Shown here: positions 16,101 to 30,371 of the stretch, piece by piece
Numbering within the stretch: position 1 is the stretch's first letter
Layout of the letters: every line of letters begins with the position of its first letter
Source of the DNA: a virus
DNA: 30,827 nt
IMG/VR virus record: IMGVR_UViG_3300023103_000011
Span: 1 to 30,827 of that record
Reading direction: 5' to 3' (one strand)
The notes under the pieces: generated by a model
Seen by the model: only the letters and a program-made list of their open reading frames with translations
Told to the model about the DNA's origin: nothing
The model's database searches: none
Position numbers and translations under genes: made by a program

Positions 16101-17026
16101 TGATAACGGGCGCATTGGCCGTTTTAAAAGCGCTTGCTAACTTTTTCCCTTTAAATATAATTCTTGCAGCGACGGCAGCGGTCGTCACTGGTGTGCAGAT
16201 CGCAAAAATTAAGAATCAACCGGATCCGACCTTTGCCCATGGTGGATTCATTGCCCGTGGTGGAAAACATGGTGCTCAGTACAGTGATGGTGGAATTGCA
16301 TTAATCGACCGCGCGTCCGGACGTGAAGTAGGTGAAATGGAAGGAGATGAAGCAATTATTTCAGCTGATCAGACAGCTGCTAACCTTCCGATGATCCATG
16401 AAATGTTTAAAAATGCGCGTACTCCTGGCATGCGGAATAAGGCCGTATCTTCTGAAAAAGGATTGCAGAGCAGCTTTCGGGATGGTGGTATGTTTGAATC
16501 TCCTTACTGGAAAAAGGAAATGTATTTGTTTGGATCCAAAAAAAGAAAAGCAGCAGCCGCGGCCGCTGCTGCCGAAGAAGAAGCGGCTGCAGCGCAGGCC
16601 GAAGCAAATGCTTATACCGCAGATCTGCCAAGTGCTGACACATCTGCTTATGATGGCTTAGACGGCTCCGAACCAAATCCAAGTACTGCCGAATCTTCTG
16701 CTGCATTTGAAGCTTCGCAGGCTCAGGCAAAACAACAATTAAAATTACTGCAGGAAATAATTGATACGATTGAGGCAGGCACGGAAGATACCGCTTACGC
16801 GCTGGACCTGGTAGCGAAAGCGGTTGGAAATAGTGCAGTGAGCACATCCGACGCGCTGGTGAAAATGGGTGGTGAGGTTAATTCTTTGAAAGGTAGTATT
16901 GACGGTGTCAGGGGTGCAGTTTTGGAAAATGTAGGTGCAACCCGGGGTGTAGAAAACGCTGTAAACAACAGTAATGCGAACGGCGTTTTATATGGTATTT
17001 TGGATAGAATAAGTAACCTAAAATGA
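13142..17026 (+). CDS. Tail tape measure protein
   Basis: The 1294-residue product is the longest gene here. It has the tape-measure layout: N-terminal coiled coil (about 15-120), a PhageMin_Tail-type core (about 150-330, 'FGVDELTEGYVKMVNRGL' included), hydrophobic stretches near 150-170, 350-400 and 980-1020, and long charged helical repeats between. A Gly-rich segment 'HGGFIARGGKHGAQ' follows the last hydrophobic stretch. The C-terminus is Ala/Glu-rich, with a run of eight Ala near 1140. At roughly 0.15 nm per residue the tail could be up to about 190 nm. A GAGGAGA just before the ATG at 13142 supports the start. Confidence 0.92.
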   Translation: MALQQNETVSITLKIEGDEARNKLALLEKESRNLEKALKDVPKGSAEWQDLNKQLNQNTMEQAKLRSEVGLTGLTYKQLQTEVKNLTKEISKMTPGTADFIAKSKQLNEVTARAKEVRTEMNGLGEAIDAPNKQGLWSKMVSGVNTVKGAFNAFLALAVVQYIFELGKAIFETSSKFEKYESVLTTALGSQKEARESMEAIKKMATNTTFGVDELTEGYVKMVNRGLRPSQKEMMSLADLASSQGKTFDQLIEAALDAATGENERLKEFGISATKSGDQVTYSFKGMQKTVANTPEAINAAILAFGEMEGVAGSNATQMETLGGKASNLGDSFDGLMVEMGTGLRPVFIAVLDLISASIPVLSFLGKALGTVSLICKSFVMGIIDTVANAGKSIYTLGAAAAELANGNLAGAKKMLDTALDYGKASLNSFSESGKKTNAEIIAVWKNPAAEVEAKFAGKKQGEAHQTELTAAQVKEAAKRVKEKEKELAEFKAAEDKYDEKVKADRAKTLELIAQLESEHDATVAKNSLASDTAKIEEKRRKRLKEVADSLADETTKETARAAINRNADADIEKTKEEYRKKTLAADQEAAQKRIENTRFITETERQAELALLDWKELNAKGSASKLAAIAKERLATELRYLKEKLAQEEAAEKERINADITDQDQRAAAILAVEGRYHNESIAADKKAAVDKKAIDDDLKEKKQANLKSYSDMFASLLKGDISGFLDGASKIVSGHKAAWQERIAADTKNFEMGAQAAQAAVNFLNNLAQAKADKAIATANRERDEKVAILQNELSVTEVLITASSNYVTALKEAETNRLAELQRILTSETSTEERKRDALKKYYSEQLQQMKAAEEQKIQDLQRLANLAKTDDEKRAIEAKIALAVKESEEKIRLAEEESQAKTEMLDTLQEFTVESSATLLTDAQQSSEKQINLASDEAEQKADFKADLEETIASENRKARATEMAEKTKAFKAQKKADIATALITGALAVLKALANFFPLNIILAATAAVVTGVQIAKIKNQPDPTFAHGGFIARGGKHGAQYSDGGIALIDRASGREVGEMEGDEAIISADQTAANLPMIHEMFKNARTPGMRNKAVSSEKGLQSSFRDGGMFESPYWKKEMYLFGSKKRKAAAAAAAAEEEAAAAQAEANAYTADLPSADTSAYDGLDGSEPNPSTAESSAAFEASQAQAKQQLKLLQEIIDTIEAGTEDTAYALDLVAKAVGNSAVSTSDALVKMGGEVNSLKGSIDGVRGAVLENVGATRGVENAVNNSNANGVLYGILDRISNLK

Positions 17027-17086
17027 GGAAAAATATGCCGAAATTGGTTATATTTACAACAGGAACTAAAAACACTACTCAGCAAA

Positions 17087-17629
17087 ATGATTAAGGAAAT
17101 AACGTTATGCGTACCTAAATACGTTAAGAAGTTTATTTTATCCGAACCAGATTACGAATGTATTTCCGACAATGTTATTAAGGTTCCAAGGCTGTCAGAA
17201 TTAGGACATTTAATTAACGGTTTCTCCCGGACAATTCCTTACACGCAGCCAATTCAGGAACATTCGCTAACCAAGTCAACCGAACTGCTTACTTTTAAGT
17301 ACAATTGTAAAAAGAAAGCTTTTGACATACCGGTTCAGCGATACTCAGTTCTGGTGGCTTTCCTGAATGAGCAGTTCCGTGCTTCATTGATACGTGAAGT
17401 AACTGTTATCCATTCGCTTCATAATGATGACGACTATGGATGGATGGTACGTTTTTTTCTTAAGCAGCGTGGTGTGATTGTAGACGATGCCCAGGAGAAA
17501 GATATGGAATGGGAAACGGCAAAAAAGATTTATCGTGATCATTTAAGCCGTATTAATGAGAAAAACGCTAAAAATCGCAAACTTTCGAAGCCTGTTTTGT
17601 CAGGGTTAGAGCTAGTTTGTAGGGTTTAA
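17087..17629 (+). CDS. Unidentified protein after the tape measure
   Basis: The 180-residue mixed alpha/beta protein, with a strongly basic C-terminal helix (about 145-172), is not recognised. It lies between tape measure and distal-tail genes and is followed by a terminator. It may be a tail assembly or regulatory protein. A weak TATATTTA promoter-like sequence in the 60-base gap before it resembles the Bacteroidota -7 element, so it could also be transcribed on its own. Confidence 0.55.
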   Translation: MIKEITLCVPKYVKKFILSEPDYECISDNVIKVPRLSELGHLINGFSRTIPYTQPIQEHSLTKSTELLTFKYNCKKKAFDIPVQRYSVLVAFLNEQFRASLIREVTVIHSLHNDDDYGWMVRFFLKQRGVIVDDAQEKDMEWETAKKIYRDHLSRINEKNAKNRKLSKPVLSGLELVCRV

Positions 17630-17665
17630 CTCACCGTCGTCAGGGCTACAACTACTTTGTAGGGG
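17598..17665 (+). repeat. Imperfect 27-base direct repeat pair
   Basis: GTCAGGG...TTTGTAGGG occurs at 17598-17624, at the end of the 180-codon gene, and again at 17639-17665 just after its stop. The copies match at 22 of 27 positions with a 41-base period. The second copy contains a small hairpin CTACAA/TTGTAG. This looks like a local duplication immediately upstream of the terminator; no function is apparent. Confidence 0.5.
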
Positions 17666-17668
17666 CCA

Positions 17669-17703
17669 AAAACCGCGTTTCTTTCCAAGAGACGTGGTTT
17701 TTT
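17669..17703 (+). terminator. Rho-independent terminator
   Basis: AAAACCGCGTTTC (17669-17681) pairs with GAGACGTGGTTTT (17689-17701) through 13 base pairs including two G-U pairs, loop TTTCCAA, with the T-run ending at 17703. It ends the tape-measure unit. Confidence 0.8.
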
Positions 17704-17720
17704 AGTTATTTGAATACCTC

Positions 17721-17750
17721 TTTTTTCGTCCTTTCTGTTGGGTGCTGCCA
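17721..17750 (+). promoter_or_regulatory. Late-box copy C with TGCTGCCA
   Basis: TTTTTTCGTCCTTTCTG (17721-17737) and TGCTGCCA (17743-17750) lie just after a terminator and 17 bases before the next ATG. The two-part match to copy B, at a similar post-terminator position, is the best evidence that this is a real element. Confidence 0.45.
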
Positions 17751-17766
17751 GCTTTAATTTTGAGTT

Positions 17767-18306
17767 ATGGCAACAGTTACATCCAGTCAACCATGGGAGC
17801 AAAAACAGCTCAATCAATCGGGGATCCGGCGTCTCAAAATCGTAGACGCTGATATGCTTCTGGTTTTGAACAATTGGTTGATACCACAAAACGATTTTAT
17901 CTTTTATGAATTCATCTTTCCATCAGACCTTTCCTGTATTGCCTCATTCGGCAGGCAGCTAAAAGAAAGCGGATCCCCATTTTGGAACCAAAACATAAGT
18001 TATGCATTGCCACACGTCTCTGATATGCTGGTAATGTGGGCGGCTGAAAATGCTTATAAACTTTGGATAGTAATTGCAGAAGATTACAATGGTATTACCC
18101 GGGCGTTCGGTGGATCCTGTGAAGGTTTAAAGATGAGCTTTCAGGCAACAACCGGAAACGGACCGCGGGATACCAACCCGATGAGTTTTGCTTTTTCAGC
18201 TGAGCAGCTGGCTCCATATATCATACTTCCGGATTATGAGGATAATATCCTTTTCCCAAACGGAGCTGGTTTTTCTTACGGTTTTTCAACAGGTTTTAAT
18301 TCTTAA
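17767..18306 (+). CDS. Tail-associated structural protein candidate
   Basis: The 179-residue product is aromatic-rich and beta-rich, with a Gly/Phe-rich C-terminus ('GAGFSYGFSTGFNS') common in tail-tip or fibre-linked proteins. It is the first gene after late-box C, in a unit with the short protein and esterase genes that follow. No enzymatic motif is seen. Position after the tape measure suggests a distal-tail role, but the family is not recognised. Confidence 0.5.
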   Translation: MATVTSSQPWEQKQLNQSGIRRLKIVDADMLLVLNNWLIPQNDFIFYEFIFPSDLSCIASFGRQLKESGSPFWNQNISYALPHVSDMLVMWAAENAYKLWIVIAEDYNGITRAFGGSCEGLKMSFQATTGNGPRDTNPMSFAFSAEQLAPYIILPDYEDNILFPNGAGFSYGFSTGFNS

Positions 18307-18308
18307 TA

Positions 18309-18626
18309 ATGACAAGAGAACAATTTAAAGCGTGGGTAAATGAAACCTTCCCCGACAATGTGACCAGGGCCATCTCAGAAAACGATCTCCGGGATGGCCT
18401 TGATAGGATGGCTGATCATGTTTTTGATACACTCGAAAATATGGATACAAAGGTAAATTCAATCAATAGCCTGGTCTTTCCAATGAAAAAGGGATTCGTT
18501 TATGCTGCATTGGATACGAATTTCAGTGCAACTCCGAAAATGCAGGTTTATTATAATGATGGTACGGCACAAACCAAAGGTGATTTATACACTTGGCCAA
18601 TTGAACAGTTAAAAAATCTTATTTAA
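18309..18626 (+). CDS. Short tail-fibre-associated protein candidate
   Basis: The 105-residue product has an N-terminal helix ('REQFKAWVNETFP') followed by 'ISENDLRDGLDRMADHVFDTLEN'. This resembles the short adaptor segment at the start of many Bacteroidota tail-fibre proteins. The rest is a short beta region. It lies 2 bases after one gene and 1 base before the esterase gene, so all three are co-translated. It may link the secreted esterase or a fibre to the tail; that is inference. Confidence 0.45.
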   Translation: MTREQFKAWVNETFPDNVTRAISENDLRDGLDRMADHVFDTLENMDTKVNSINSLVFPMKKGFVYAALDTNFSATPKMQVYYNDGTAQTKGDLYTWPIEQLKNLI

Positions 18627-18627
18627 A

Positions 18628-20124
18628 ATGAAAAATCTATTTAAATTCTTAATCCCGTTCCTTTTTGTAGTTCCTGTTTTTGGCCAGGCCGGATTCCCTG
18701 TTAAAGTCGATGCAACCTTTTTTGATGGCGTAAAATTATCTTTCAATAATTCTACTGCACTTAAAGAAGGAGGGAAAGTAATAACCCAGGAAGAATTAAG
18801 GTCCAGAATAATTAGAGAAGGGTCGCCTTGGGCCACCGGCGGCGGTGCTTACCTAAAATGGAATGGTCAATCGGCGTCAGGGGGGTTAAACGTCGGAGGA
18901 TTAAGTTCCGGATCGAGCGTGAAATCTATTTATGCGGAAAGTATCGTAATTTCTGCATCAAAAACTTGTATAATGCAGCCTGTCGGGTGGTATTTAAAAT
19001 CGCCAATAAGTGGCTTGCCAGTTGGTAGCACTCAGGTACTTTCCAATCAAATTGTCGTAAGTGCTGGATCCTCAGTAACAATTCCTTTAAATCAATTAAT
19101 TACACCTGACAGGGCAATGATCTCTGTCGCTGTCACATCCGTCATTGATCAGGATCCACGTGTCATATTCCCGCAAATATCTGGAGGCTCGGTCGCTTTG
19201 AAAACTGATGTGAATGATGGTACCCTCTTAGGGCCGTCTACGCCAATAAGTGACGGAACCTTCTCTTACTTACTAAATGCCAGAAACGCGTCTGGTTCTG
19301 CATCTTCCGGCACAATCACGCTAACGCATCAATTGCCAAGTGATGTGAATTACATTTCTTCGTCCGGAGCAGGTTGGACTGTTAATGTTGTAAATGGATT
19401 ACTGACTGCTACCACTTCTGATGTGATCACAAATGCCGGTGTAAAAAGCCTAACCGTAATCCTATCGCCAAAAACGGCGATATATGCAGGTATTGCTGGA
19501 TTCGGTTATCAGGCAGATATTGATGTAAATTATGATGCCCCTCCTATTGTCTGGAATGGAACAAGCATTACAGCGGGGACAGGTGTTACAAATTACACGG
19601 CATCTTATCCTTATTTGATCAGGAACTGGATCAGGGATGTTAAAAATGTTAAAACCCGTGTTGTCAACAAGGCCATATCGGGAACATCGTCGGTTACACA
19701 CGAAAGCTTAAGAGCTTTTTCTAACAGGTATGACTTTGCTGATGCACCTTTTGCGGCGGTGATGGAGCACGGTATTAATAACAGTGCGCAGGCTGTAGCT
19801 ACCTCGGTTTCTGTGGATAACATGAAGGCTTATGTAAAGCAAATGAAAGCACAGGGGGCAAAATGGGTCTTTATCTTCGCGCCCTATCCAACCGGAAACG
19901 CACCATTAGAAGCATTAAATGCGACACTTTCCACAGCACTATCTGCCGGCGTTGCGTCGCTCAATGACCCCAAAGTTAGGTATGTGATAGAGACACGCAG
20001 TATGTGGAATCCTGTTACGCAGGACGCAACTTATACCACAGATCAAATTCACTTAACCGATGCTGGAAATGCAAAGGTCTTTGAAGCATTTGTGAGTCAT
20101 ATAACAACTAATAGCCTATTTTAA
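18628..20124 (+). CDS. Secreted SGNH-family esterase, tail module
   Basis: The 498-residue product begins with a signal peptide (about 1-20) ending 'VFG' before Gln21. The middle is beta-rich with repeats (about 60-300). The C-terminal ~190 residues form an SGNH/GDSL hydrolase: Ser313 in 'NGTSIT' (block I), Gly352 in 'SGTSS' (block II), 'GINN' at 382-385 (block III) and Asp472-His475 in 'DQIHLTD' (block V). Such enzymes remove acetyl groups from carbohydrates. A tail-spike-like depolymerising role is natural from the neighbours, but a Sec signal peptide is odd for a virion protein and suggests export to the periplasm or cell surface. Confidence 0.75.
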   Translation: MKNLFKFLIPFLFVVPVFGQAGFPVKVDATFFDGVKLSFNNSTALKEGGKVITQEELRSRIIREGSPWATGGGAYLKWNGQSASGGLNVGGLSSGSSVKSIYAESIVISASKTCIMQPVGWYLKSPISGLPVGSTQVLSNQIVVSAGSSVTIPLNQLITPDRAMISVAVTSVIDQDPRVIFPQISGGSVALKTDVNDGTLLGPSTPISDGTFSYLLNARNASGSASSGTITLTHQLPSDVNYISSSGAGWTVNVVNGLLTATTSDVITNAGVKSLTVILSPKTAIYAGIAGFGYQADIDVNYDAPPIVWNGTSITAGTGVTNYTASYPYLIRNWIRDVKNVKTRVVNKAISGTSSVTHESLRAFSNRYDFADAPFAAVMEHGINNSAQAVATSVSVDNMKAYVKQMKAQGAKWVFIFAPYPTGNAPLEALNATLSTALSAGVASLNDPKVRYVIETRSMWNPVTQDATYTTDQIHLTDAGNAKVFEAFVSHITTNSLF

Positions 20125-20131
20125 GCCGTTT

Positions 20132-20206
20132 TCTTGTCCTTTCACCCCCGTTATAATCATTATAATCTTGTAACCACTTAATAATCGAACTGATTAACCA
20201 GGTTAC
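20132..20206 (+). promoter_or_regulatory. Late-box copy D and short repeats before the head module
   Basis: TCTTGTCCTTTC (20132-20143) follows the esterase stop closely. A tandem TTATAATCA/TTATAATCT lies at 20151-20168. GTAACC and GGTTAC arms then flank a short segment before the ATG at 20207. The box matches copies B and C up to the C after TCCTTT but lacks the TGCTGCCA part. This probably contains the promoter of the protease-scaffold-capsid unit. Confidence 0.4.
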
Positions 20207-21046
20207 ATGAATCCGCTTTTAACACAATTCTTATGGTACATATCTGAGGCGCATCTGCCTGAGCTGCAATTCAAATTAAGGAACCCTCAAAGGGCTCCTT
20301 TTTCTGCTATACTTCCTAAAAGTTTTGATGCTCAAATACAGGCTTCGGGAATGGCGAAAGCTTATAATGATTTTCTAACTCAAGTTTATTCTACCGATAA
20401 AAGTGTGCTGGTACTTCCGGTACAAGGCGAAATGAGCCGTTCCAGTTATTATAATTACGGAAATGACTTCTTCATTCGGCAGCTAAATGCAGCTGCAAAA
20501 GATAGTGATTATAAAGGAGCTGTTTTGCAGATGAATACGCCAGGCGGAACTGCTGACTCGACGCCGGCTTTCGCTGATGCTGTTGCGGCTTTTAAAAAAG
20601 TAAAGCCCATTGTAACGCAGACTGCTTATTGTGCAAGTGCCGGATACTATGTGGCCAGCCAGGGAGATGAGATTATCATTGAAGACCAGGCTGCGAGCTC
20701 CATTGGATCCATTGGAACGCTGCTCATACTTGAAAATTATGCTGAGAACCTTAAACAACAGGGAATCAGCATGGAAATCATGCGTGCGAAAGGTAGTGAA
20801 GACAAAGCCCGGGTAAACTGGATTGAGGAAATTACTCCGGAAGCAAAAGCGGGATTGCAAAGTATGCTTGATGCCTGCCAGAAAGAGTTTGCAGGAGCCG
20901 TAAAACGTGGCAGAGCTGGAAAAATTACAGCAGCGGCCATGACAGGTAAGATGTTCAATGCTTCTGATGCCTTGAAAGAAGGCCTGGCAGATAGCAAAGG
21001 TGATCTTGCTTTTGCAGTACGCCGGGTGATTGAGCTAAGTAAGTAA
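20207..21046 (+). CDS. S49-family head maturation protease
   Basis: The 279-residue product is a phage SppA/S49-type serine peptidase that processes scaffold and capsid proteins during prohead maturation. The fold markers are 'QMNTPGGTADST' (108-119), the nucleophile Ser144 in 'AYCASAGYYVAS' and 'SSIGSIGTLL' (164-173). Lys195 or Lys200 in 'RAKGSEDK' is a candidate for the catalytic Lys of the dyad. The length is typical of the phage type. It is followed by the scaffold candidate and the major capsid gene, the usual order inside a head module. Confidence 0.85.
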   Translation: MNPLLTQFLWYISEAHLPELQFKLRNPQRAPFSAILPKSFDAQIQASGMAKAYNDFLTQVYSTDKSVLVLPVQGEMSRSSYYNYGNDFFIRQLNAAAKDSDYKGAVLQMNTPGGTADSTPAFADAVAAFKKVKPIVTQTAYCASAGYYVASQGDEIIIEDQAASSIGSIGTLLILENYAENLKQQGISMEIMRAKGSEDKARVNWIEEITPEAKAGLQSMLDACQKEFAGAVKRGRAGKITAAAMTGKMFNASDALKEGLADSKGDLAFAVRRVIELSK

Positions 21047-21071
21047 GTTTTCAAACTATAATTATTATAAA

Positions 21072-21590
21072 ATGAGTAAGTCAAAAAAGAGTGTTGGGGC
21101 GTGGCTGAGTGATGTTTTTGGAACTTCTCACAAAGCGATATCAGAAAATTTAAGCACGGAGCAATACAACCAGCTGGTAATTGATGCAGGAAAGTTCCGT
21201 GAGTCGGAAGAATCAAAGCAGCAAGATGATGAAGCTGATGAAACCGATGAAGAAGAAACTACGGATAGTGAGCAAACGGATCCTAAAAATTCAAGTTTTG
21301 AATCCCGCCTTAAAGCGCTGGAAACCGGCCTTGTAGCTGCCCAGAATGCTTTGAAAGCTGAGAAGAAAGTAAGTAAGGGATTGACTACCAAACTGTCAGA
21401 AGCTGAAATAAAACTGACTGAAACGCAGACCAAACTTGCTACTTCCGAAGAACAGAAAACGAAATTACGCCAGGCTGTTAATCCACTTGGCGATGAAGAT
21501 CTTACAAATAAGGAAGATTCAACAGCAGGATTAACTCAGGCAGATATTGAGGCTCGTAAGAGCTATAAGGCAAACCGCTCAGAGGATTAG
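21072..21590 (+). CDS. Scaffolding protein candidate
   Basis: The 172-residue, highly charged protein has an acidic stretch (about 45-75, rich in Asp, Glu and Thr), then a Lys/Glu-rich coiled coil (about 75-140), and a basic C-terminal end. This is the usual build of a phage scaffold that templates the prohead and is then cleaved by the adjacent protease. It lies between protease and capsid. The call rests on composition and position. Confidence 0.7.
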   Translation: MSKSKKSVGAWLSDVFGTSHKAISENLSTEQYNQLVIDAGKFRESEESKQQDDEADETDEEETTDSEQTDPKNSSFESRLKALETGLVAAQNALKAEKKVSKGLTTKLSEAEIKLTETQTKLATSEEQKTKLRQAVNPLGDEDLTNKEDSTAGLTQADIEARKSYKANRSED

Positions 21591-21612
21591 ATCCGTGAAA
21601 ATGAACGAGCGT

Positions 21613-21678
21613 CGGTGCAGTCATCCCGAAACGATTGAGGTGATAGACTAGTGAGCAGGGATCGGCTGCACCGTTTTT
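21613..21678 (+). ncRNA. Candidate structured RNA upstream of the capsid gene
   Basis: The 127-base gap before the capsid gene contains an 8-bp outer stem CGGTGCAG (21613-21620)/CTGCACCG (21666-21673). Inside it is ATCCC (21623-21627)/GGGAT (21658-21662), with a 30-base apical region and TTTTT directly after the outer stem. It could be a terminator or attenuator with a large head, an RNA processing site, or an unnamed RNA motif that sets capsid expression. It is not a tRNA: no T-arm or anticodon arm can be drawn. Confidence 0.5.
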
Positions 21679-21717
21679 AAACGAATCAATTTTTTACAAT
21701 TTAAATAGGGAGAGGAA

Positions 21718-22719
21718 ATGGCAAGTGTGGATTTAAGTGCCCTGGATACATCATTGAAACACCGTAAGGCAAAAGGAGAAGGCCTGATGGTTAAGAAAAT
21801 GACAGCCGGGTGGGGAAAAGTTGGTGGATTTAAAAAGTTGAGAGTTATTGATCAGATCGTACTTGGATCAATGGCCTTTAAGAGCCTGGCTCAGCCTGGT
21901 GGAAAAGGAACTTTCAATCCGAAAGCAAATGCGCTTAAAGTACAAGCAAGAATTGGCCAGGTGAGACCAGCCAAAATTGACTTGTTGATTACCGAAATTG
22001 AACGCCTTGAGCTGGAAGCAACATACTTTGCAGAAGTCGAAGGTACGGATGGACGTGATCCTGAGAAATTCATGTTTGCAGATCACATCTGGGAACATGT
22101 AGTGGAAATTGCAGGTGTAGATACTTTAAGAGCTGTCTGGGTTGGAGAGCTAAATTCTGCGGGTACAAATGCTGTTGATGTATGTAATGGTATTGTTACA
22201 TTAATTGACTCAGCCATTGAAACAGATGAACTTCCGGAAACGCTTATTCTAACTCACTCGGATGCGAATTTTGTTATTACAGAGGCAAACATCATATCTG
22301 AGATCAAAAAGCTGGTTAAGATTTACCGTACAAAATTACCAGCCTATGGTGATACGCCTTCTGTGTTTTACCTGGCGCCAGAACGTCTGGCTGAATACCA
22401 GTTTGCACTGGAAGCGGCATTGGGTATGGTGAATACGTACAATTCCTTTAACCAGGTTGTTGTGTACTTTCAGAAAAACATTCGTTTCGAGCCGGTTCTG
22501 GATCTTGCAGGAACTGACTTTATGGCCATCATTCCAGAAAATAACCTGGTATACCTTACTGACCGTAAGGATGCAAAAACAGAACTTGACAGCGATTACA
22601 ATAAACGCGACCGTTCGATTGCCTTGATGGCTGACTGGTGGTTTGCACCGGAAGTATACCGTATGGACATTATCGCAACTAACGATTTGCGTACACGTCC
22701 TACGCTTTCCGGGGAATAG
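21718..22719 (+). CDS. Major capsid protein
   Basis: The 333-residue product follows protease and scaffold. It has a basic N-terminal arm (1-40), a central alpha/beta region, and C-terminal 'IIPENNLVYLTDRKD' and 'RSIALMADWWFAPEVYRMDIIATNDL' segments like those of HK97-fold capsid proteins in Bacteroidota phages. No separate delta domain is evident; the scaffold is a separate gene. GGGAGAGG 3 bases before the ATG is one of the best ribosome-binding sites in the window, in keeping with high expression. Confidence 0.85.
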   Translation: MASVDLSALDTSLKHRKAKGEGLMVKKMTAGWGKVGGFKKLRVIDQIVLGSMAFKSLAQPGGKGTFNPKANALKVQARIGQVRPAKIDLLITEIERLELEATYFAEVEGTDGRDPEKFMFADHIWEHVVEIAGVDTLRAVWVGELNSAGTNAVDVCNGIVTLIDSAIETDELPETLILTHSDANFVITEANIISEIKKLVKIYRTKLPAYGDTPSVFYLAPERLAEYQFALEAALGMVNTYNSFNQVVVYFQKNIRFEPVLDLAGTDFMAIIPENNLVYLTDRKDAKTELDSDYNKRDRSIALMADWWFAPEVYRMDIIATNDLRTRPTLSGE

Positions 22720-22758
22720 TTTCAAAGTGAGGTAGGAAAGAAAAGTAGTTAAAATTAT

Positions 22759-22784
22759 GAATTGCCGGTTTCTGCCGGCAATTC
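22759..22784 (+). promoter_or_regulatory. Perfect hairpin between capsid and tail-tube candidate
   Basis: GAATTGCCGG (22759-22768), loop TTTCTG, CCGGCAATTC (22775-22784): ten perfect base pairs, with no T-run after it. It is more likely an mRNA stability, processing or attenuation element than a terminator. It may set the ratio of capsid to downstream products. Confidence 0.5.
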
Positions 22785-22803
22785 TTCCATCCAAAATTTA
22801 AAA

Positions 22804-23496
22804 ATGAATAAATATCTTAAGTTCTTATTTGTGGCTGTCGTAGCCATTGTTGCAGCACATTTGGTACCGTTGTTTTCTGATGGTGATGCAGTGGATATGG
22901 TTTTTGCCATTGGTCCCGCATTCGCTTCGTTTACCAATCTTAGAAACATTGCAGAACAAACCTCAAATGCCCCGGGTATTCGTCGAATTGGCGTCATTGC
23001 AGTAAGAGATTTGTTGCCCACAGTAATTGATTGGCCAAAGGCTGTCGGACCAACTTTGGACGTGAACCTTGAAACTATGGAAATTACAACTGCTCTTCCA
23101 GTGGCAGTAGGTAAAACAGTAGCAGTAATTGAACCAGCAGATAACTCAGCGTTTGCAGACTTCGAAAATCAAGGTGAGCGGTACTATCAGTCTTACAAGC
23201 ACATGATGGGTTTTGATATCGCAGGCTTGACAAAAGCTCAAGCGGTTGAAATGAGGAAATACATTAATACAGGGTGCATTTTCTTTGTTGAATCGCATGA
23301 CGGCGAAATTCGTGTCTATGGATCAAAGCTGGCTCCAATTGTACTTAAAAGCAAAGGATCTTCCGGTAAAAAAGGTGGTGACAAACGAGGATATTCCAAC
23401 ACTGGAGACAATGATTCTTTTGTGATCGAACCTCCATTTTACCCAGCAACATTGGCGCTGCCTGGTATGACATCAGTTGTAGACGACGGAGAATGA
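22804..23496 (+). CDS. Major tail tube protein candidate
   Basis: The start is the ATG at 22804, just after a hairpin. The upstream TTG (22762) lies within the hairpin and is rejected. The product is 230 aa. Residues 4-22 are hydrophobic, an unusual feature for a tail tube protein. The middle ('ALPVAVGKTVAVIEPADNS') and the 'GKKGGDKRGYSNTGDN' segment near residues 190-210 fit the beta-rich tube protein pattern in Bacteroidota phages. Context (after the capsid, before a possible chaperone pair) agrees. An alternative is a head decoration protein. The stop overlaps the next ATG. Confidence 0.5.
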   Translation: MNKYLKFLFVAVVAIVAAHLVPLFSDGDAVDMVFAIGPAFASFTNLRNIAEQTSNAPGIRRIGVIAVRDLLPTVIDWPKAVGPTLDVNLETMEITTALPVAVGKTVAVIEPADNSAFADFENQGERYYQSYKHMMGFDIAGLTKAQAVEMRKYINTGCIFFVESHDGEIRVYGSKLAPIVLKSKGSSGKKGGDKRGYSNTGDNDSFVIEPPFYPATLALPGMTSVVDDGE

Positions 23497-23699
23497 AAGC
23501 CGTAAAAGTTAAACTGGCTTTTCCATCCGAAAAGCCAGTTAATTTCAAAATTGGCGAGGTTAACGTCAGAATAGGCAAAATCCCGACCAGTATTGAGCAG
23601 CAATGGGCTGACATTATTATAGAGCAGTACCCGGGATGGATCGAACTTGTAGTAAAGAAAAAGGCTGCAAAATTGAGTTTAACCACAAAGGAGGCCTGA
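23493..23699 (+). CDS. Small basic protein after the tail-tube candidate
   Basis: The 68-residue, Lys-rich, mainly beta protein overlaps the preceding gene by four bases (ATGA). Its last codons and stop lie inside the left arm of the terminator at 23687-23718, so this gene ends the capsid-tube transcript. No family recognised. Confidence 0.5.
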   Translation: MKAVKVKLAFPSEKPVNFKIGEVNVRIGKIPTSIEQQWADIIIEQYPGWIELVVKKKAAKLSLTTKEA

Positions 23700-23718
23700 C
23701 ATAAACCAGGCCTCCTTT
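23687..23718 (+). terminator. Rho-independent terminator overlapping a stop codon
   Basis: AAAGGAGGCCTG (23687-23698), loop ACATAAAC, CAGGCCTCCTTT (23707-23718): 12 perfect pairs, followed by TA and six T's. The TGA of the 68-codon gene is at its upper left, so a translating ribosome would disrupt the hairpin; this makes readthrough dependent on translation. Confidence 0.85.
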
Positions 23719-23746
23719 TATTTTTTAATTTCTATTCTTATAAATC

Positions 23747-24064
23747 ATGACTACAAAGGAAAAAATTGCTCTGCATTCTCTTAGGCAAAAGGTAGAGCGC
23801 GGAATTTACACTGAGGAAAAAGCTAAGGCAGAATTTGAAAGAATAACCGGCCGTATTGCTGACGAAGTGCCAGCTAAAAATGATGAAGATGGGCAAGTCA
23901 TGGGGGAGTACCTGGACAGCTTAAACGCAGCGCTGGAAAAAGCAGCTCAGGTGAAAGAGGAAGAACAGCAGGAGGGATCAACCGTGGATCTAAATCCGCT
24001 GACAGACAAAATGGTGCAAAAGCGGCCGGCAGCCAAAGTGGTAAAAGTGAAGAAAGCAAGCTAA
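23747..24064 (+). CDS. Possible tail assembly chaperone, upstream partner
   Basis: The 105-residue, charged, helical protein has a Lys-rich C-terminus. It follows a terminator. The next coding segment is in the -1 frame directly after its stop with no normal start codon, as in the G/GT tail chaperone pairs of siphoviruses, where a fraction of ribosomes shift frame. No canonical X-XXY-YYZ slippery site is visible near the end (the best is GTA-AAA-G), so the frameshift idea is open. Alternatively this is a stand-alone protein. Confidence 0.5.
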   Translation: MTTKEKIALHSLRQKVERGIYTEEKAKAEFERITGRIADEVPAKNDEDGQVMGEYLDSLNAALEKAAQVKEEEQQEGSTVDLNPLTDKMVQKRPAAKVVKVKKAS

Positions 24065-24546
24065 TTCAGTTAGGTAAGCCGCTTACTCCGGATCAATACA
24101 AAGTCGAATTCGCCAAGTCTTGTGCCCTGGTTGATGAATACAATCGAAAGTCTGCTGACCTGGCTGATCGTCTGTTTGACATTCCGGAAGAAATGGCCTG
24201 TGAAAAAGAAGTAGCTGAGATACTGCACTATGACGAGCTATACCGCAAGGAACTGGCAAAAAGAAAGTTCTTGCAGGAAAACAGAATGCTGCCAGATGAT
24301 CAGCCAGTTAAAGAGTTCCGTAAGGATTACCACATTCCAACAGCCGGCGTCGATTTAGGTCTGGCCATTCGGAATCTGTCAAAAAATGTGTCAGTTTGGA
24401 AGGCTCGGCTTGACAATCCCCGATATCCGGAAGCTGCACAAAAACATGGAATGTATGTGGCCTTATATGAAGAAGCAAAAACAAATGCGGCCGCTGAGCG
24501 TGCCCGAATCCAAAGTTTAGCAAATGAGTCTGATAACGACAATTGA
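24064..24546 (+). CDS. Gene without a normal start codon, possible -1 frameshift extension
   Basis: The frame is open from 23884 to the TGA ending at 24546. From about 24067 on it reads as typical protein ('LGKPLTPDQYKVEFAKSC' and onward). No ATG, GTG or TTG occurs in this frame before the ATG at 24193, so starting at 24193 would leave ~43 residues of protein-like sequence unexplained. Options: a -1 frameshift out of the 23747-24064 gene; an ATT start at 24064 overlapping its TAA (TAATT); or a start lost since the ancestor. The 24193 start gives 117 aa, the ATT start 160 aa. Function unknown; tail chaperone extension is inferred. Confidence 0.5.
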   Translation: MQLGKPLTPDQYKVEFAKSCALVDEYNRKSADLADRLFDIPEEMACEKEVAEILHYDELYRKELAKRKFLQENRMLPDDQPVKEFRKDYHIPTAGVDLGLAIRNLSKNVSVWKARLDNPRYPEAAQKHGMYVALYEEAKTNAAAERARIQSLANESDNDN

Positions 24547-25507
24547 ACAGGTAAGAGATCATATTGGCAATGCCATCCGGAAGGAACACAGCCTTGAAAT
24601 ACTTACACCTTATTTGAAAAAAACAGAGGAAAATCTGATCACGGATTTGATTGGCCAGCAGCAGCTCACTGCTTTGTATGCTTCGGTGTCTGGATCTTTG
24701 GAAACACTTAAGAACCTGGTTGTTGCTGCCATTGTCTGGAATGGATATCAGGAAGCCTGGTATCAGGCATTTTATCAGTTTGGCATTACCGGTGTAAACC
24801 GTACGGCTGTGAAAGAAACTGACAACTTGTTCCGGTACCAGGAAGATGCCATTTTAAAAGATATTGTTCGGAAAGCTGATGATGCAATCGAGCGGTTGAT
24901 GCTATTTCTAGAGAGGAATCTTGAAACATTCCCTTTATACAAGCAATCTGCTCAATTTTCCAGGAATTTCGCTTACCTGGTGTCAACGCCCGGTTCGTTG
25001 CAACGATCTCTTCCCGAAGTTTCCAAAAGCTACCGGATGTATTCTGTTCTGAGACTATACATGGATCGGGTAGAACTTAATACTGTTCGATCAACGGTTG
25101 GAAGTGATTTGTATAATGATCTAAAATTGAAAGTTTCAACAAGTGCTGCGCTTGACTCTAATTATAAAAAGCTACTTATTCTTACTCAGGATTATGTAGC
25201 TCCGGCCACACTATTGGAAGCAATGCCCTGGATCAGTATACAGTTTAGTCCATCAGGTATCCGGATCATGAAGGTATTTAATAACCTGCAGGATGAAAAT
25301 CCGCTGTCCGACATTCAGGCTCAAAGCCTGATGGATAATCTCCGGAGCCGGATTGCGTCAGCAAAATCAGCATTGAGGGTTTTTCTTAATTCAGTAGCTT
25401 CTGAAACTGTTTTTCCGGATTATTTTCATTCGGATTTGTACCAGGCAGTTGGGTCAAAAAAATGGATCATACCTGATAATTCAGGTCGTAAACATTTCAG
25501 AATGTGA
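24524..25507 (+). CDS. DUF6712-like head-tail adaptor candidate
   Basis: The 327-residue helical protein is built from two similar halves. Each opens with a 'Y(L/M)xxxExNxxxxxxG' type helix ('YLKKTEENLITDLIG' near 29-43 and 'YMDRVELNTVRSTVG' near 178-192). Each ends in a Leu-rich helix before 'FP.Y' ('RLMLFLERNLETFPLY' near 125-140 and 'ALRVFLNSVASETVFPDY' near 284-301). This matches what I know of DUF6712 in Bacteroidota phages, thought to be a neck or adaptor protein. It overlaps the preceding gene by 23 bases and the next by four. Confidence 0.6.
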   Translation: MSLITTIEQVRDHIGNAIRKEHSLEILTPYLKKTEENLITDLIGQQQLTALYASVSGSLETLKNLVVAAIVWNGYQEAWYQAFYQFGITGVNRTAVKETDNLFRYQEDAILKDIVRKADDAIERLMLFLERNLETFPLYKQSAQFSRNFAYLVSTPGSLQRSLPEVSKSYRMYSVLRLYMDRVELNTVRSTVGSDLYNDLKLKVSTSAALDSNYKKLLILTQDYVAPATLLEAMPWISIQFSPSGIRIMKVFNNLQDENPLSDIQAQSLMDNLRSRIASAKSALRVFLNSVASETVFPDYFHSDLYQAVGSKKWIIPDNSGRKHFRM

Positions 25508-26334
25508 AAAAGGTAACAATTCCAGAACTTAATGCAGAATGCCAGCTGGTAAGTAGTTATGAGGATCTTAGAAAAAAAGATCTTCTTAAGCTTGTTCGAC
25601 TGGCTTACTTGAACCCTTCCAGTTTTGTCGTAAAGGTTGCACTGCTTAGAGATTTATTTCATGCTTCGGAGACGGTTTGGGAACAGTTGGTGAAACCAGG
25701 TAATCATGACCAGGTTTGGCGTCTGATTAAAATGCTTGATTGGGTGTGGAAAGGTCCTGAATTTCGGCCTGTAATTTTTCTGCGGATCCGTGGTAAATCA
25801 TATCTGCTTCCTGATGAGAATCTGTTTCAGTTAGGAACAGCAGAATTCGTAATTGCAACTGCTCACCTGATTGGTTTTCATACAGCTAAGGATGACGCAG
25901 CTGCTATCAGTTGCCTGGCAAAATTTACAGCTACAATTATCAGACCCAAGCCGGAAGTAATGGAAAGGATCCGCGGTGGCCAACAGAACGGAGATCCGCG
26001 TGAATCATTCAATTCCATAAAATCAGAACGCAGGGAAAAGCTATTCAGTAAAGTGGATCTGGTCACTCAAATCATGATTGCGCAATGGTTCAACAATGCT
26101 GCCAATAAGCTTTTGACACAATACGGCATGAGAGGTGGTGATCCGGATGCAGCTCCGATTAGTCAGGGGATTTTTGTCCAGGATTGGGAACGTCAGGTGG
26201 TTAGAGTTGCAGAAAGCCAGGTTTATGGTGGCTATGATAAAGTAATGGAGCGGCCATTAACCGATGTGCTGGCCTTTATCGAATTGAAAAACGATGAAAT
26301 CCGGAGACAAATAGCAGCGAATAAAAAGAAGTGA
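25504..26334 (+). CDS. Phage protein of unknown function
   Basis: The 276-residue protein starts at a GTG that overlaps the previous stop (ATGTGA). The first ~100 residues are helical, then beta ('PVIFLRIRGKSYLLP'), followed by a helical C-terminal half ending in a basic tail. It follows the adaptor candidate and belongs to the same operon. No family is recognised; a late assembly or tail protein role is inferred. Confidence 0.5.
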   Translation: MKKVTIPELNAECQLVSSYEDLRKKDLLKLVRLAYLNPSSFVVKVALLRDLFHASETVWEQLVKPGNHDQVWRLIKMLDWVWKGPEFRPVIFLRIRGKSYLLPDENLFQLGTAEFVIATAHLIGFHTAKDDAAAISCLAKFTATIIRPKPEVMERIRGGQQNGDPRESFNSIKSERREKLFSKVDLVTQIMIAQWFNNAANKLLTQYGMRGGDPDAAPISQGIFVQDWERQVVRVAESQVYGGYDKVMERPLTDVLAFIELKNDEIRRQIAANKKK

Positions 26335-26377
26335 CGGGCTGAAAAGCAATTCAATAACAGTGTAAAAGATAGAAGGG

Positions 26378-28729
26378 ATGAAAAAGTTATTAATGATTAT
26401 GCTCCTGCTCTCATCGCAGTTGAGCACTATTGCACAAATGAAAATCACCATCACTTTGCCTGATAGCATCATTGGCAAAGGATCAATGCAAAATATGATC
26501 AAGCAGGCGCTGAAAGACGCCGGTGCTGTACCGCCTGTTACAATCTCCAAATGCAAGGAAGGACCTGTGTTGCGGGCGATCACCAATGTTTCTGCAACTT
26601 ATCTCAATGCACAGTTCCATGGAGACGGCGTTATAATATTCTCATGGTCTATTAAAAATAGTGCCGGTGAAATATTGCGGAGTGGAGATGTTACACCCAC
26701 AAATAATACTCCTGGTATCACATACAGTACATTATCACCCGGGGATTATACTTTAACCATAACCGGTAAAAGCTGTTCATCTGAGGCAAGTGCAAAACCT
26801 TTCACTGTACCTGGTAAAGATGTGGGAGTTATTGTTCCGCCTAATACGACGAATTCCGGTTCACTCGGCACTTATAAAACCAGAATTGGAGGCCGGAATT
26901 ACACTTTTAATAAAACTCCGGAACTTTCCCTGGCTTTCAACCAGGACGGGACAATTTCAGATAACACTGCTGCTCTTAACAAGAGTGGCAGTATTCATAA
27001 ATTAGGGGATCAAAATGTATTTTACGCGATCGGCAATTATCCTTTGGAAACTTCATCTGGATCCGGCCAGAATCTTCAAAATATATATTTGCCTGATGGG
27101 ATTTACACCATCACACAATATGTTTGCAAGGCTGATAAAGTTCCGGATTTTGCGCGTTTTAAGTCCGGCTTTGAAGGATGGAATGGTATTGGCGTCAACG
27201 CAGACAACGCCCGGCGAAGCCAAATCTTTTTATCAATCAATTCTGATTCCAAACAGGGAAATGGAACGGTACCTGCTTATCTGAAAGTTTCCAGGACTTT
27301 AGTTTATCCGGAGATTGCCACATTAAAGGATTGGCGCAAGTACAAGAAATTTAATGCTATTGGCGCCTCCAACGGCGCTGGATCCAGATTGGTTTACCAC
27401 AGGTCGGGAATAAATACCTATTTCAGATCTGAGGACGAAGGCCTGTCTTCAATGTGGCGAACTGACAGAATCCCCGAAAGATGGATTCCATCCAATGATG
27501 ATTTATATGGTGCAGGCCGCGCCAATGCGCGTTTCATGGGAAACGACATCAATGCAGCCATTACCGATGAGTACGAGGAAAATACACAAGGAACAGGCGG
27601 AGATATCAATTTCCGTATGTCTCATTATTACAGAGGATTTTACGATCAGATCAACGAGGTTACAGGTGAAACCGATGCTGCTAAAATGGGTGCATTCGGC
27701 ACTTATGGCGGGGATCAGTGGTATGGCGCATTCGGCGCAGGGATGGATCGGAGCTACAAATTATATGTTGAATCGCTCACTGATCATTTGTACGACGCCT
27801 ATAACGGCAATACCGATACCTGGTTTAAGGAAGCGAATTATTACAAATCCGGAGCGGTCAATTTCAGGAACTTGAACTACAAGTTGTATTACTACAACAA
27901 AACTTTTCAAACTCCGTACGAGCTGATCTATATCAACGAGCGTATCAAGCTCGGTACAAAAACGTATGAAGGAAAGGACAGAGAACGTAACGTTATTCTG
28001 TTTACATCCCCAAAAAGTGAATCTTTTGTTGCAGATTTTGCAGGTGGGGTAGAAAAAAGGAACTGGATCGAAATGAACGATACGGGCGAGCTGATCCCAT
28101 TTGCAGGTGGCGAAATGCTAAGCCAAGTAAACGGCCAGGTTCCTGCTCCCTGGGACCAGATGTACACTGATGCACTTTGGTCGAACCTGATCTGTGGCGG
28201 CGTGTTCAATTGGGATGCAGGAAGTACATTTGGTTCAGACACGACAAAATTCATGTTTTGGGGCGCAGATTGGCAAGCAAGATGGAAAGCTACAGGATCT
28301 GCAAATTTTGAGAATTATGTTCCTGATCAGCATGGCGCTCCTGCCAATGACGGATCCGGAATGATGCACCGGCTCTATTCTTCCCCACTGGATGCACACC
28401 TGGCAGCTCAGGAGGTTATTTGGAGCGTTAGGGATAAGATTCAAAAAATCAGCCACGTTGCCTATCAAAGCGCAATAGGCAATTTTACCCCGATCCCTGG
28501 TGATACTGGTCTGCACCTGAATGGCTTTGGTGAAGTCAACCGGAACCAGTTCAATATCTACAACATCTACAAAAAACAGCTTGGTATTGCGCTTCTATCA
28601 GAAGGTTCAGGCGGCAGTCTGATCTGGTATTATAACGGATTTCTCAGCCCACAGCTCTATGAAGACGTGACCATAAAAGGCAAAACTTTCCGCGCTTATG
28701 GCCGCCAAACCGTAATCATAGAGTTATGA
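26378..28729 (+). CDS. Large secreted protein with Ig-like N-terminal region
   Basis: The 783-residue product has a clear signal peptide (1-19, ending 'TIA' before Gln20). Then come a short helical segment (about 22-50), an Ig or fibronectin-like beta domain (about 60-150: 'VSATYLNAQFHGDGVIIFSWSI', then 'SPGDYTLTITG'), a linker, and a ~600-residue aromatic-rich domain whose pattern suggests a glycoside-hydrolase-like barrel. No catalytic pair can be fixed by eye. AGAAGGG just before the ATG is a good ribosome-binding site. It precedes the lysis genes and its stop overlaps the next ATG. Secretion is odd for a tail fibre; surface remodelling is another possibility. Confidence 0.6.
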   Translation: MKKLLMIMLLLSSQLSTIAQMKITITLPDSIIGKGSMQNMIKQALKDAGAVPPVTISKCKEGPVLRAITNVSATYLNAQFHGDGVIIFSWSIKNSAGEILRSGDVTPTNNTPGITYSTLSPGDYTLTITGKSCSSEASAKPFTVPGKDVGVIVPPNTTNSGSLGTYKTRIGGRNYTFNKTPELSLAFNQDGTISDNTAALNKSGSIHKLGDQNVFYAIGNYPLETSSGSGQNLQNIYLPDGIYTITQYVCKADKVPDFARFKSGFEGWNGIGVNADNARRSQIFLSINSDSKQGNGTVPAYLKVSRTLVYPEIATLKDWRKYKKFNAIGASNGAGSRLVYHRSGINTYFRSEDEGLSSMWRTDRIPERWIPSNDDLYGAGRANARFMGNDINAAITDEYEENTQGTGGDINFRMSHYYRGFYDQINEVTGETDAAKMGAFGTYGGDQWYGAFGAGMDRSYKLYVESLTDHLYDAYNGNTDTWFKEANYYKSGAVNFRNLNYKLYYYNKTFQTPYELIYINERIKLGTKTYEGKDRERNVILFTSPKSESFVADFAGGVEKRNWIEMNDTGELIPFAGGEMLSQVNGQVPAPWDQMYTDALWSNLICGGVFNWDAGSTFGSDTTKFMFWGADWQARWKATGSANFENYVPDQHGAPANDGSGMMHRLYSSPLDAHLAAQEVIWSVRDKIQKISHVAYQSAIGNFTPIPGDTGLHLNGFGEVNRNQFNIYNIYKKQLGIALLSEGSGGSLIWYYNGFLSPQLYEDVTIKGKTFRAYGRQTVIIEL

Positions 28730-29046
28730 AGAAATACGTCATCATTATAATTGCTGCAGTATTAATATTAACTGTGGCCACAATCTTCTTTGTCCGGAAC
28801 ATTCTGCATAAACAAGAACCTGGTTACAGTGAAATGATTCGGGATAGCCTGGTGATTATCGAAAAAAAATTACAAATACATCACGATTCAACTGTTTTTT
28901 GGGATGAACAACATACCATTTTTGAGGCGAAAAACGATTCTGTTAATCGCCTTGACAGCATTGGCCGTGCTGCACTTCGAAACTTCTATCGCGCAAAAGT
29001 TGAAGCCGATATCGCCGGAGAAATTCGAACAGGCGCTGCTCGATAG
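28726..29046 (+). CDS. Inner-membrane spanin (Rz-like) candidate
   Basis: The 106-residue product has one N-terminal membrane helix (about 5-25) and a soluble helical periplasmic part, the usual shape of an i-spanin that helps fuse inner and outer membrane at lysis. A second gene overlaps its 3' 143 bases in another frame, as in Rz/Rz1. The ATG overlaps the stop of the 783-codon gene. The call rests on topology, overlap and lysis-cassette position. Confidence 0.55.
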   Translation: MKKYVIIIIAAVLILTVATIFFVRNILHKQEPGYSEMIRDSLVIIEKKLQIHHDSTVFWDEQHTIFEAKNDSVNRLDSIGRAALRNFYRAKVEADIAGEIRTGAAR

Positions 29047-29278
29047 CCTGATTGGTTACGAATATCTGAAACCCAGGTATCATACGCTTCTAAAAACAAA
29101 TGAATACCTGATGAAAGAGAACCAGGACTACAAAATCAAACTGCATTTAATGTCTTTGCAATGTGAAGCTGAACGTGCTTCCTTCGCTGATCAGCTGGCT
29201 AAGGAGAAGAAAAAAAGGAAGAAATTGATATTGCTGTATGTGATAGTGGGAATGGTAGGTGGTGCAATAATTAATTAA
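28904..29278 (+). CDS. Overlapping spanin partner with signal peptide and C-terminal membrane helix
   Basis: The 124-residue product starts inside the i-spanin candidate, in the +1 frame. It has a signal peptide (about 1-30, ending 'SIA' before Gln31), then a helical charged region (31-105), then a C-terminal hydrophobic helix (about 107-122). There is no lipobox Cys, unlike ordinary o-spanins and u-spanins, so the outer-membrane link would have to be different. The overlap and topology argue for a spanin-type lysis role. Confidence 0.5.
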   Translation: MNNIPFLRRKTILLIALTALAVLHFETSIAQKLKPISPEKFEQALLDSLIGYEYLKPRYHTLLKTNEYLMKENQDYKIKLHLMSLQCEAERASFADQLAKEKKKRKKLILLYVIVGMVGGAIIN

Positions 29279-29279
29279 A

Positions 29280-29600
29280 ATGGAAGAATTACTAAAGAAG
29301 CTGGGTCTTACGCCAGAGGGTTGGATTATCTCTTTTTTTGCTGCGATCCTGTTTGCGATCTACCGAATCTATGAGCAGGACGAGCCGACGTCACAAAGGA
29401 AGCGTGTCCGGATCATTATCATGGCACTTACCAGTGCATTGTTGGTACCAGGCCTGGTGGTTTACTGGTTGGGTGTTCAAAATGCATTTTTATCTGGAGC
29501 AATTACCGGGCTATCAGTGTACTGTTTTGAGCTCATCATTAACCTGGCAAAGAAAAAAGTAACAGAGAAATTAAATAAATCAGAAGATGGAAATTCTTGA
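29280..29600 (+). CDS. Holin candidate
   Basis: The 106-residue product has three hydrophobic segments (about 15-29, 43-63 and 66-88), then a Lys-rich C-terminal tail, the usual layout of a class I holin that opens the inner membrane at lysis. It lies one base after the spanin-like gene and overlaps the next by 14 bases. Holins differ greatly in sequence, so the call comes from topology and position. Confidence 0.55.
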   Translation: MEELLKKLGLTPEGWIISFFAAILFAIYRIYEQDEPTSQRKRVRIIIMALTSALLVPGLVVYWLGVQNAFLSGAITGLSVYCFELIINLAKKKVTEKLNKSEDGNS

Positions 29601-29907
29601 AAACATAGCAGTTATACTGCTTAGCGTGTTTATCCTGGTAATTACACTTATGGCGCATGTCGAAATTAAGAAAAACGACCGCTCCATTTTGAAAGCTCAA
29701 ATCCGGTCGTTAGGTGACGATACGACCGGAAGGATCGTTTACCGTTGGCTGCTGATCCTGGTTGCCGTGTGTGGATTTTTGTGGGGGCCATCAGGCGGAA
29801 CATATATCTTAATGCTTTTCGCTCTGATCAGCGAACGTTTGATCATTTATCGCGTGTGCCGGCCGAACGATTTCTTAGGTAGAACACTTCAAAAATTTAA
29901 CTGGTAA
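29587..29907 (+). CDS. Second small membrane protein of the lysis cassette
   Basis: The 106-residue product has an N-terminal hydrophobic segment (about 4-25), a basic polar loop (27-52) and two closely spaced hydrophobic segments (about 52-64 and 70-86). It could be a holin partner, antiholin or second holin. It overlaps the holin candidate by 14 bases and precedes the lysis-enzyme gene by two. Not recognised by family. Confidence 0.5.
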   Translation: MEILENIAVILLSVFILVITLMAHVEIKKNDRSILKAQIRSLGDDTTGRIVYRWLLILVAVCGFLWGPSGGTYILMLFALISERLIIYRVCRPNDFLGRTLQKFNW

Positions 29908-29909
29908 TT

Positions 29910-30371
29910 ATGGAAATTGTAGTTACAAGGCTGTTTCGTGGTGTTAATAGTACGCTAAGCATATTTGAAATAGATGGGAAATTTGTTGGTGGGCAGTTTA
30001 TCCTGGAAGATCGAGACCGTGGTTTAACATCCTCCATGAGTCTGGAAGATATTAAACAGGAAAAGGTTTATGGCAAAACGGCGATACCCACAGGACGATA
30101 TCGGGTTAAGCTTACTTATTCGCCCAGGTTTAAAAGGATACTACCAATACTTATTAGCGTGCCTGGCTTTGCCGGAATCAGGATCCACTCTGGAAACAGC
30201 CATGAAGATACCGAAGGATGCTTACTACCAGGCTCAAATTATCGAAAATCAGACTTGGATTATTTCGTAGGTGCCAGCCGAATTGCAAGTGGTGATTTGC
30301 GAACAAAAATAGAATGGGCATTTTATCGGAATGAAGAAGTATGGATTGAAATCAAACAAGGTTATAAATAA
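29910..30371 (+). CDS. DUF5675-like lysis enzyme candidate
   Basis: The 153-residue product matches the DUF5675 pattern: 'TAIPTGRYRV' (58-66), then 'PGFAGIRIHSGNSHEDTEGC' (85-104) with His93, Asp100 and Cys104. The His...GC arrangement recalls the active site of L,D-transpeptidase-like enzymes. Since it directly follows two holin candidates and is last in the lysis cassette, the best guess is a peptidoglycan-active endolysin. No signal peptide is present, so it would depend on the holin for access. A terminator follows. Confidence 0.65.
   Translation: MEIVVTRLFRGVNSTLSIFEIDGKFVGGQFILEDRDRGLTSSMSLEDIKQEKVYGKTAIPTGRYRVKLTYSPRFKRILPILISVPGFAGIRIHSGNSHEDTEGCLLPGSNYRKSDLDYFVGASRIASGDLRTKIEWAFYRNEEVWIEIKQGYK

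Follow-up and report, generated by a model that had tools for sequence, protein, structure and literature searches.

Late proteins of a Dyadobacter phage with signal peptides and conserved +1 glutamine, and their possible export before lysis

This work finds that three late proteins, of 498, 783 and 124 residues, encoded by a 30,827-base IMG/VR virus record (the window, analysed over its whole length), carry predicted signal peptides followed by glutamine at the +1 site, and that this glutamine is retained across their homologues. Based on these findings, we propose, with a probability of about 0.5, that these proteins are exported late to the periplasm and released at lysis, with a possible docking of fibre-type products on the tail. 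The virions of tailed phages are regarded as built in the cytoplasm; related phages may export parts of their attachment machinery from it before the cell bursts.

The Q-rule, by which signal peptidase I (SPI) substrates bear a +1 Gln that is cyclised to pyroglutamate, has been described for host proteins (PMC5837995, PMC10653852), and the 2018 paper of the two makes no mention of phage in its text. Among phages, Q-rule signal-peptide proteins have already been reported for the Nixviridae phages of Porphyromonas gingivalis, as five genes of unknown function (PMC10367356).

The window is read as a temperate Dyadobacter phage. Its nearest relatives are two IMG/VR prophages (G001 and G002) and prophages in Dyadobacter sp. 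CY323 and D. crusticola, whose TerL proteins are 75-79% identical to that of the window and whose gene order is almost fully syntenic; the host lineage is therefore Bacteroidota, where the Q-rule applies (PMC5837995). Relatives were recovered from viral contigs by a TerL scan; the 783-, 498- and 124-aa proteins and the product of 21718-22719, each scanned singly against viral contigs, gave zero relatives, and the phage collection searched held no relative of the 783-aa protein or of its homologue in L134.

Table 1. Positions of the window features considered in this work
Feature	Coordinates	Strand	Description
Membrane protein gene	10257-11027	-	in a low-GC patch
Region with head protease and capsid-region genes	13142-22719		downstream of tape measure and fibre genes
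Tail-fibre locus	17767..20206	+	conserved 179-aa tail gene to head protease; holds fibres with or without a signal peptide in relatives
105-aa adaptor	18309..18626	+	no signal peptide; tail-fibre N-terminal anchor (1-52) and C-terminal domain of ~55 aa
498-aa SGNH/GDSL esterase, predicted exported	18628..20124	+	signal peptide 1-19 (VFG/Q), N-terminus MKNLFKFLIPFLFVVPVFG/Q; in the tail-fibre locus
Likely capsid gene	21718-22719		downstream of head protease
232-aa protein	22798-23493		hydrophobic N-terminus
783-aa protein, predicted exported	26378..28729	+	signal peptide 1-19 (TIA/Q), N-terminus MKKLLMIMLLLSSQLSTIA/Q; Ig-like domain ~52-147, putative glycoside-hydrolase-like barrel within ~160-783
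106-aa protein	28726..29046	+	N-terminally membrane-anchored, inner-membrane spanin-like; MKKYVIIIIAAVLILTVATIFF
124-aa protein	28904..29278	+	SIA/Q, N-terminus MNNIPFLRRKTILLIALTALAVLHFETSIA/Q; charged coil-like middle, C-terminal hydrophobic glycine-rich segment
Remaining part of lysis cassette	29280..30371	+	the three genes below
Two small membrane proteins	29280-29600, 29587-29907	+	holin candidates
DUF5675 protein	29910-30371	+	lysis cassette

Signal peptides and the +1 glutamine

The three ORFs and their Gln sites, as given by the sequence-only reading, were confirmed. A rule-based signal-peptide detector, which is blind to the +1 residue, flagged five of the 36 window ORFs (18628, 22798, 26378, 28726 and 28904) and placed Gln at an allowed site for 18628 and 26378 only, while a Glu in the c-region kept it from detecting the SIA/Q site of 28904. 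Stronger support for Q-rule export through Sec and SPI came from the homologues, which were chosen by mature protein sequence: the +1 Gln is retained in 10/10 homologues of the 783-aa protein, 6/6 of the 498-aa protein and 5/5 of the 124-aa protein, against means of 1.7, 1.0 and 1.0 in shuffled c-regions, and none of 2000 shuffles reached the observed counts in these families. Gln20 is invariant in the 783-family alignment, and a seventh 498-type esterase (L151) reads VFA/Q. A separate set of fibres has the +1 Gln in 12/12 cases, a count that is not independent, as the set was selected for having a signal.

The earlier list of signal-type N-termini stands for its three named members and had left out the 232-aa protein, whose hydrophobic N-terminus is conserved in the four phages aligned and lacks a Gln site. 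Its gene adjoins the likely capsid gene, and its N-terminus may be compared with the capsid 'signal peptides' of the P. gingivalis phages (PMC10367356).

The tail-fibre locus with and without a signal peptide

Two of the three proteins had been taken to be encoded with tail genes, which holds for the 498-aa protein, located between the conserved 179-aa tail gene and the head protease, but not for the 783-aa protein, located directly before the lysis cassette. The 498-aa protein matches Pfam Lipase_GDSL_2 (1.9e-12), and Q20 and the catalytic S313, N384, D472 and H475 are all invariant in six aligned esterases of this type, so that it combines a GDSL-type domain with the catalytic Ser, Asn and Asp-His expected of an SGNH/GDSL esterase. 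At the same locus, the relatives hold a 701-aa signal-less fibre with SGNH at its end (G002), a 1205-aa signal-bearing fibre with an SGNH-like stretch (L060), a 1043-aa signal-bearing fibre (L024) or other signal-less fibres (G001, L059 and L061-L063), and the window holds a signal-less anchor stub, the 105-aa adaptor, followed by the signal-bearing esterase. In a five-gene tree the signal peptide is scattered over the clades, and the signal-bearing proteins match PHROG tail-fibre, tail-spike, tail and EPS-depolymerase families.

The clearest case is a pair of prophages, found as L143 and L144 by a profile of the signal peptide plus anchor module and followed over longer stretches as L176 and L177, which are collinear over twelve genes. 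Their shared proteins are 83-98% identical, except for the tape measure (35%) and the fibre, which is 42% identical over the first ~145 residues. The L176 fibre starts with a signal, MTAKRLKNLLSVSFLTISVLISHLSVA/Q, whose codons share 74 nt with the gene upstream, whereas the L177 fibre starts with MPNTSQYRQ directly at the anchor and matches phrog_5240 tail fiber (3.6e-11). The predicted mature N-termini of the signal-bearing fibres lie 14-15 residues before a shared motif, and the starts of signal-less fibres (L177, L061, L063 and G002) are in the same register, with 13-17 residues before the motif across the signal-less set; cleavage at the predicted Gln would therefore put the mature N-terminus where the Met of a signal-less fibre sits. 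Using an anchor profile built from signal-less fibres only, with 1000 shuffles per test, the signal-bearing fibres of L176, L060 and L178 scored above all 1000 shuffles, so that these fibre-locus proteins carry the anchor as found in signal-less fibres; L024 is weak on this profile, scoring above 998 of 1000 shuffles with two reaching it. As judged from these sequences, signal-bearing and signal-less fibre alleles alternate at an equivalent locus. With both forms in one phage type and their N-termini in register, the conflict with ordinary virion assembly suggested by the sequence-only reading need not hold.

Because the mature N-terminus of the 498-aa protein has no fibre-anchor profile match, its docking via the 105-aa protein can only be inferred. 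An anchor within that mature N-terminus was not supported, as 36 of 1000 shuffles scored as high on the profile, and the fibre anchor at the window locus is a separate ORF outside the 498-aa protein. This 105-aa adaptor shares 62% identity with the N-terminal part of the 701-aa fibre of G002, and its C-terminal domain shares 60% with a membrane protein of 113 aa in L112, the gene of which stands before that of an SGNH protein with a signal peptide and Gln. We suggest that the esterase would be the exported form of an enzyme borne in the tail fibre by other phages of the group, that the cytoplasmic adaptor would be its probable dock on the tail side, and that the esterase may join virions at lysis.

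The locus, the N-terminal anchor, the PHROG matches and the modular C-termini resemble those of phage tail fibres and spikes with SGNH or depolymerase domains, which differ from the proteins here in that a Sec signal peptide with +1 Gln stands before or beside the anchor in the latter. A tentative extension, to which we give somewhat less than even odds, is that in some Cytophagales phages the fibre is Sec-secreted to the periplasm, cleaved by the Q-rule to its native N-terminus and attached to the virion outside the cytoplasm at lysis, such signals having been gained repeatedly on fibres and once, in L176, through a signal overprinted on the 3′ end of the tail gene that precedes the fibre. 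Since fibres of one phage type come in both forms, bearing a Sec signal or lacking it, and their mature N-termini agree, the assembly of fibres outside the cytoplasm can be put to a direct test. No report of exported tail fibres in Bacteroidota phages was found in the literature searched. The trait is not general, as a scan for signal peptides with Gln found no such protein in the Flavobacteriia isolates Leef_1, 11b and part of phi38:1, and in laban6-1 only gp12, which is not annotated as a tail protein.

Genes before and within the lysis cassette

The 783-aa gene comes after the head-tail connector genes and shares 4 nt with the lysis gene that follows it; genes of this type immediately precede lysis genes in the window, G001, G002, L024, L025, L132, L133 and L134. 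An AF2 model of the whole protein from six sequences (pLDDT 37) was usable only for the Ig-like domain, which it models with confidence and which is repeated in host proteins ending in a T9SS sorting domain. The model of the C-terminal 624 residues was better (pLDDT 69, pTM 0.76), and all 50 of the VIA rows listed for it are carbohydrate-active TIM-barrel enzymes, with a best Z of 8.3, although such a match of Z 8 at 8% identity is no proof of activity. Foldseek alone gave nothing significant (best E 0.033), and the C-terminus has no sequence match in Pfam or PDB. Its modelled fold arrangement may resemble that of the TIM-barrel glycoside hydrolases GH164, GH140, GH39 and GH42 (Z 6 to 8.3), from which it differs by an identity of only ~8%; we infer from the model that the C-terminus may be glycoside-hydrolase-like.

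This C-terminal domain recurs under different N-termini, namely in signal-bearing proteins beside lysis genes (L132-L134), at the end of signal-less proteins of 1851 and 1848 aa in tail modules (L135 and L136), following a membrane anchor in small elements that are integrated (L112, L130 and L131), and in a host chromosomal protein (L129). Elements of the anchored type, to which L140 and L141 also belong, encode a lysozyme and a tyrosine integrase besides numerous small membrane proteins. In L178, a 780-aa protein with a signal peptide and Gln (L178:15750-18092) lies directly before the lysis genes and had no match to the 783 family among the searches made, which suggests a general slot for exported proteins at this position. 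For Bacteroidota phages, these results define a slot beside the lysis genes that takes exported, enzyme-like proteins.

The 124-aa ORF overlaps the 28726 ORF by 143 nt in another frame, and the 106-aa product of the latter has homologues in G001, G002, L024 and L133. With overlapping genes, an inner-membrane anchored subunit and a position in the lysis cassette, the pair resembles the Rz/Rz1 type, and, as in Rz/Rz1 spanins, one partner is anchored in the inner membrane and the other has a signal peptide. However, the signal peptide of the 124-aa partner carries an SPI site, its C-terminus bears a hydrophobic segment, and its ORF shows no lipobox Cys of an outer-membrane lipoprotein subunit. 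The 124-aa protein is thus predicted to be half of a spanin-like pair without a lipoprotein, a kind of pair defined here. Phage-encoded Q-rule proteins and spanins with signal peptides are shared with the P. gingivalis Nixviridae phages (PMC10367356), from which the present phages differ by the SGNH esterase encoded in the fibre locus, the enzyme-like protein linked to lysis and the signal-bearing tail fibres of relatives.

Compartment, timing and competing explanations

No match to the T9SS sorting domain TIGR04183 was found in the 498-, 783- or 124-aa proteins or in the exported fibres tested, while two host surface proteins with the shared Ig domain, used as controls, scored 3e-9 and 5e-8. 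T9SS secretion of the exported phage proteins is thus not supported, and without this domain Sec export would end in the periplasm as the likely site. Therefore, the suggestion that two of the products act at the cell surface before lysis was not borne out. The other suggestion, of expression in the lysogen, likewise found no backing, since the genes are collinear with late genes, the 783-aa gene is joined to the lysis cassette by its overlap, and scans gave promoter-like sites at chance level. The missing T9SS domain and the chance-level promoter sites both favour an expression late in the cycle, with the products set free at lysis.

We propose that the three proteins would be Sec/SPI substrates in the Dyadobacter host, expressed along with the late genes, cut ahead of the Gln with a probable pyroglutamate cap, and presumably retained in the periplasm up to lysis. 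The 124-aa protein and the overlapping 106-aa membrane protein would then act as a spanin-like factor, and the 783-aa protein may be a lysis-time surface-glycan enzyme freed as the envelope breaks.

A serious competitor, to which we give roughly one chance in three, is that the exported proteins stay off the virions and serve as free exit enzymes or decoys, degrading or occupying host glycans so that the progeny escape debris and re-adsorption. The link of the 783-aa gene to the lysis cassette fits it, as do the separation that export normally makes between a protein and cytoplasmic virion assembly and a host chromosomal relative in L129, 57% identical over residues 47-781 and outside any phage gene cluster seen; but it does not readily account for the interchange of signal-bearing and signal-less fibres at one locus with an anchor shared in register, nor for L024, L060 and L176, in which no second fibre was recognised at the fibre locus. 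That the proteins are lysogenic-conversion products of a resident prophage, altering the host surface or excluding other phages, seems unlikely: the export signals and the Ig domain common to host surface proteins would agree with it, but the position of the genes, collinear with and close to late genes, the promoter signal not above chance and the lack of a T9SS domain speak against it. The 783-aa gene as a conversion gene was accordingly dropped on the promoter scans. Still less probable is that the N-terminal segments are unused for export, the true starts lying downstream or the segments being virion-processing sequences. An ATG does immediately follow the Gln codon in the 783-aa ORF, TTG/GTG codons occur further into the 124-aa ORF, and prohead-protease cleavage has been suggested for the capsid 'signal peptides' of P. 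gingivalis phages (PMC10367356); however, the Gln and the signal-peptide form are conserved across divergent homologues, and there is no alternative start codon within the first 60 codons of the 498-aa ORF or between residues 12 and 58 of the L176 fibre. Late periplasmic export with release at lysis remains the reading we prefer.

Some minor observations accompany these results. The host relative in L129 is a 1032-aa protein (L129:9674-12772), and the genes flanking it are not phage-like in look. The membrane protein in the low-GC patch of the window has weak relatives in L012 (25%) and L130 (29%), and the placement of the head protease and capsid-region genes in the window is unusual for a siphophage.
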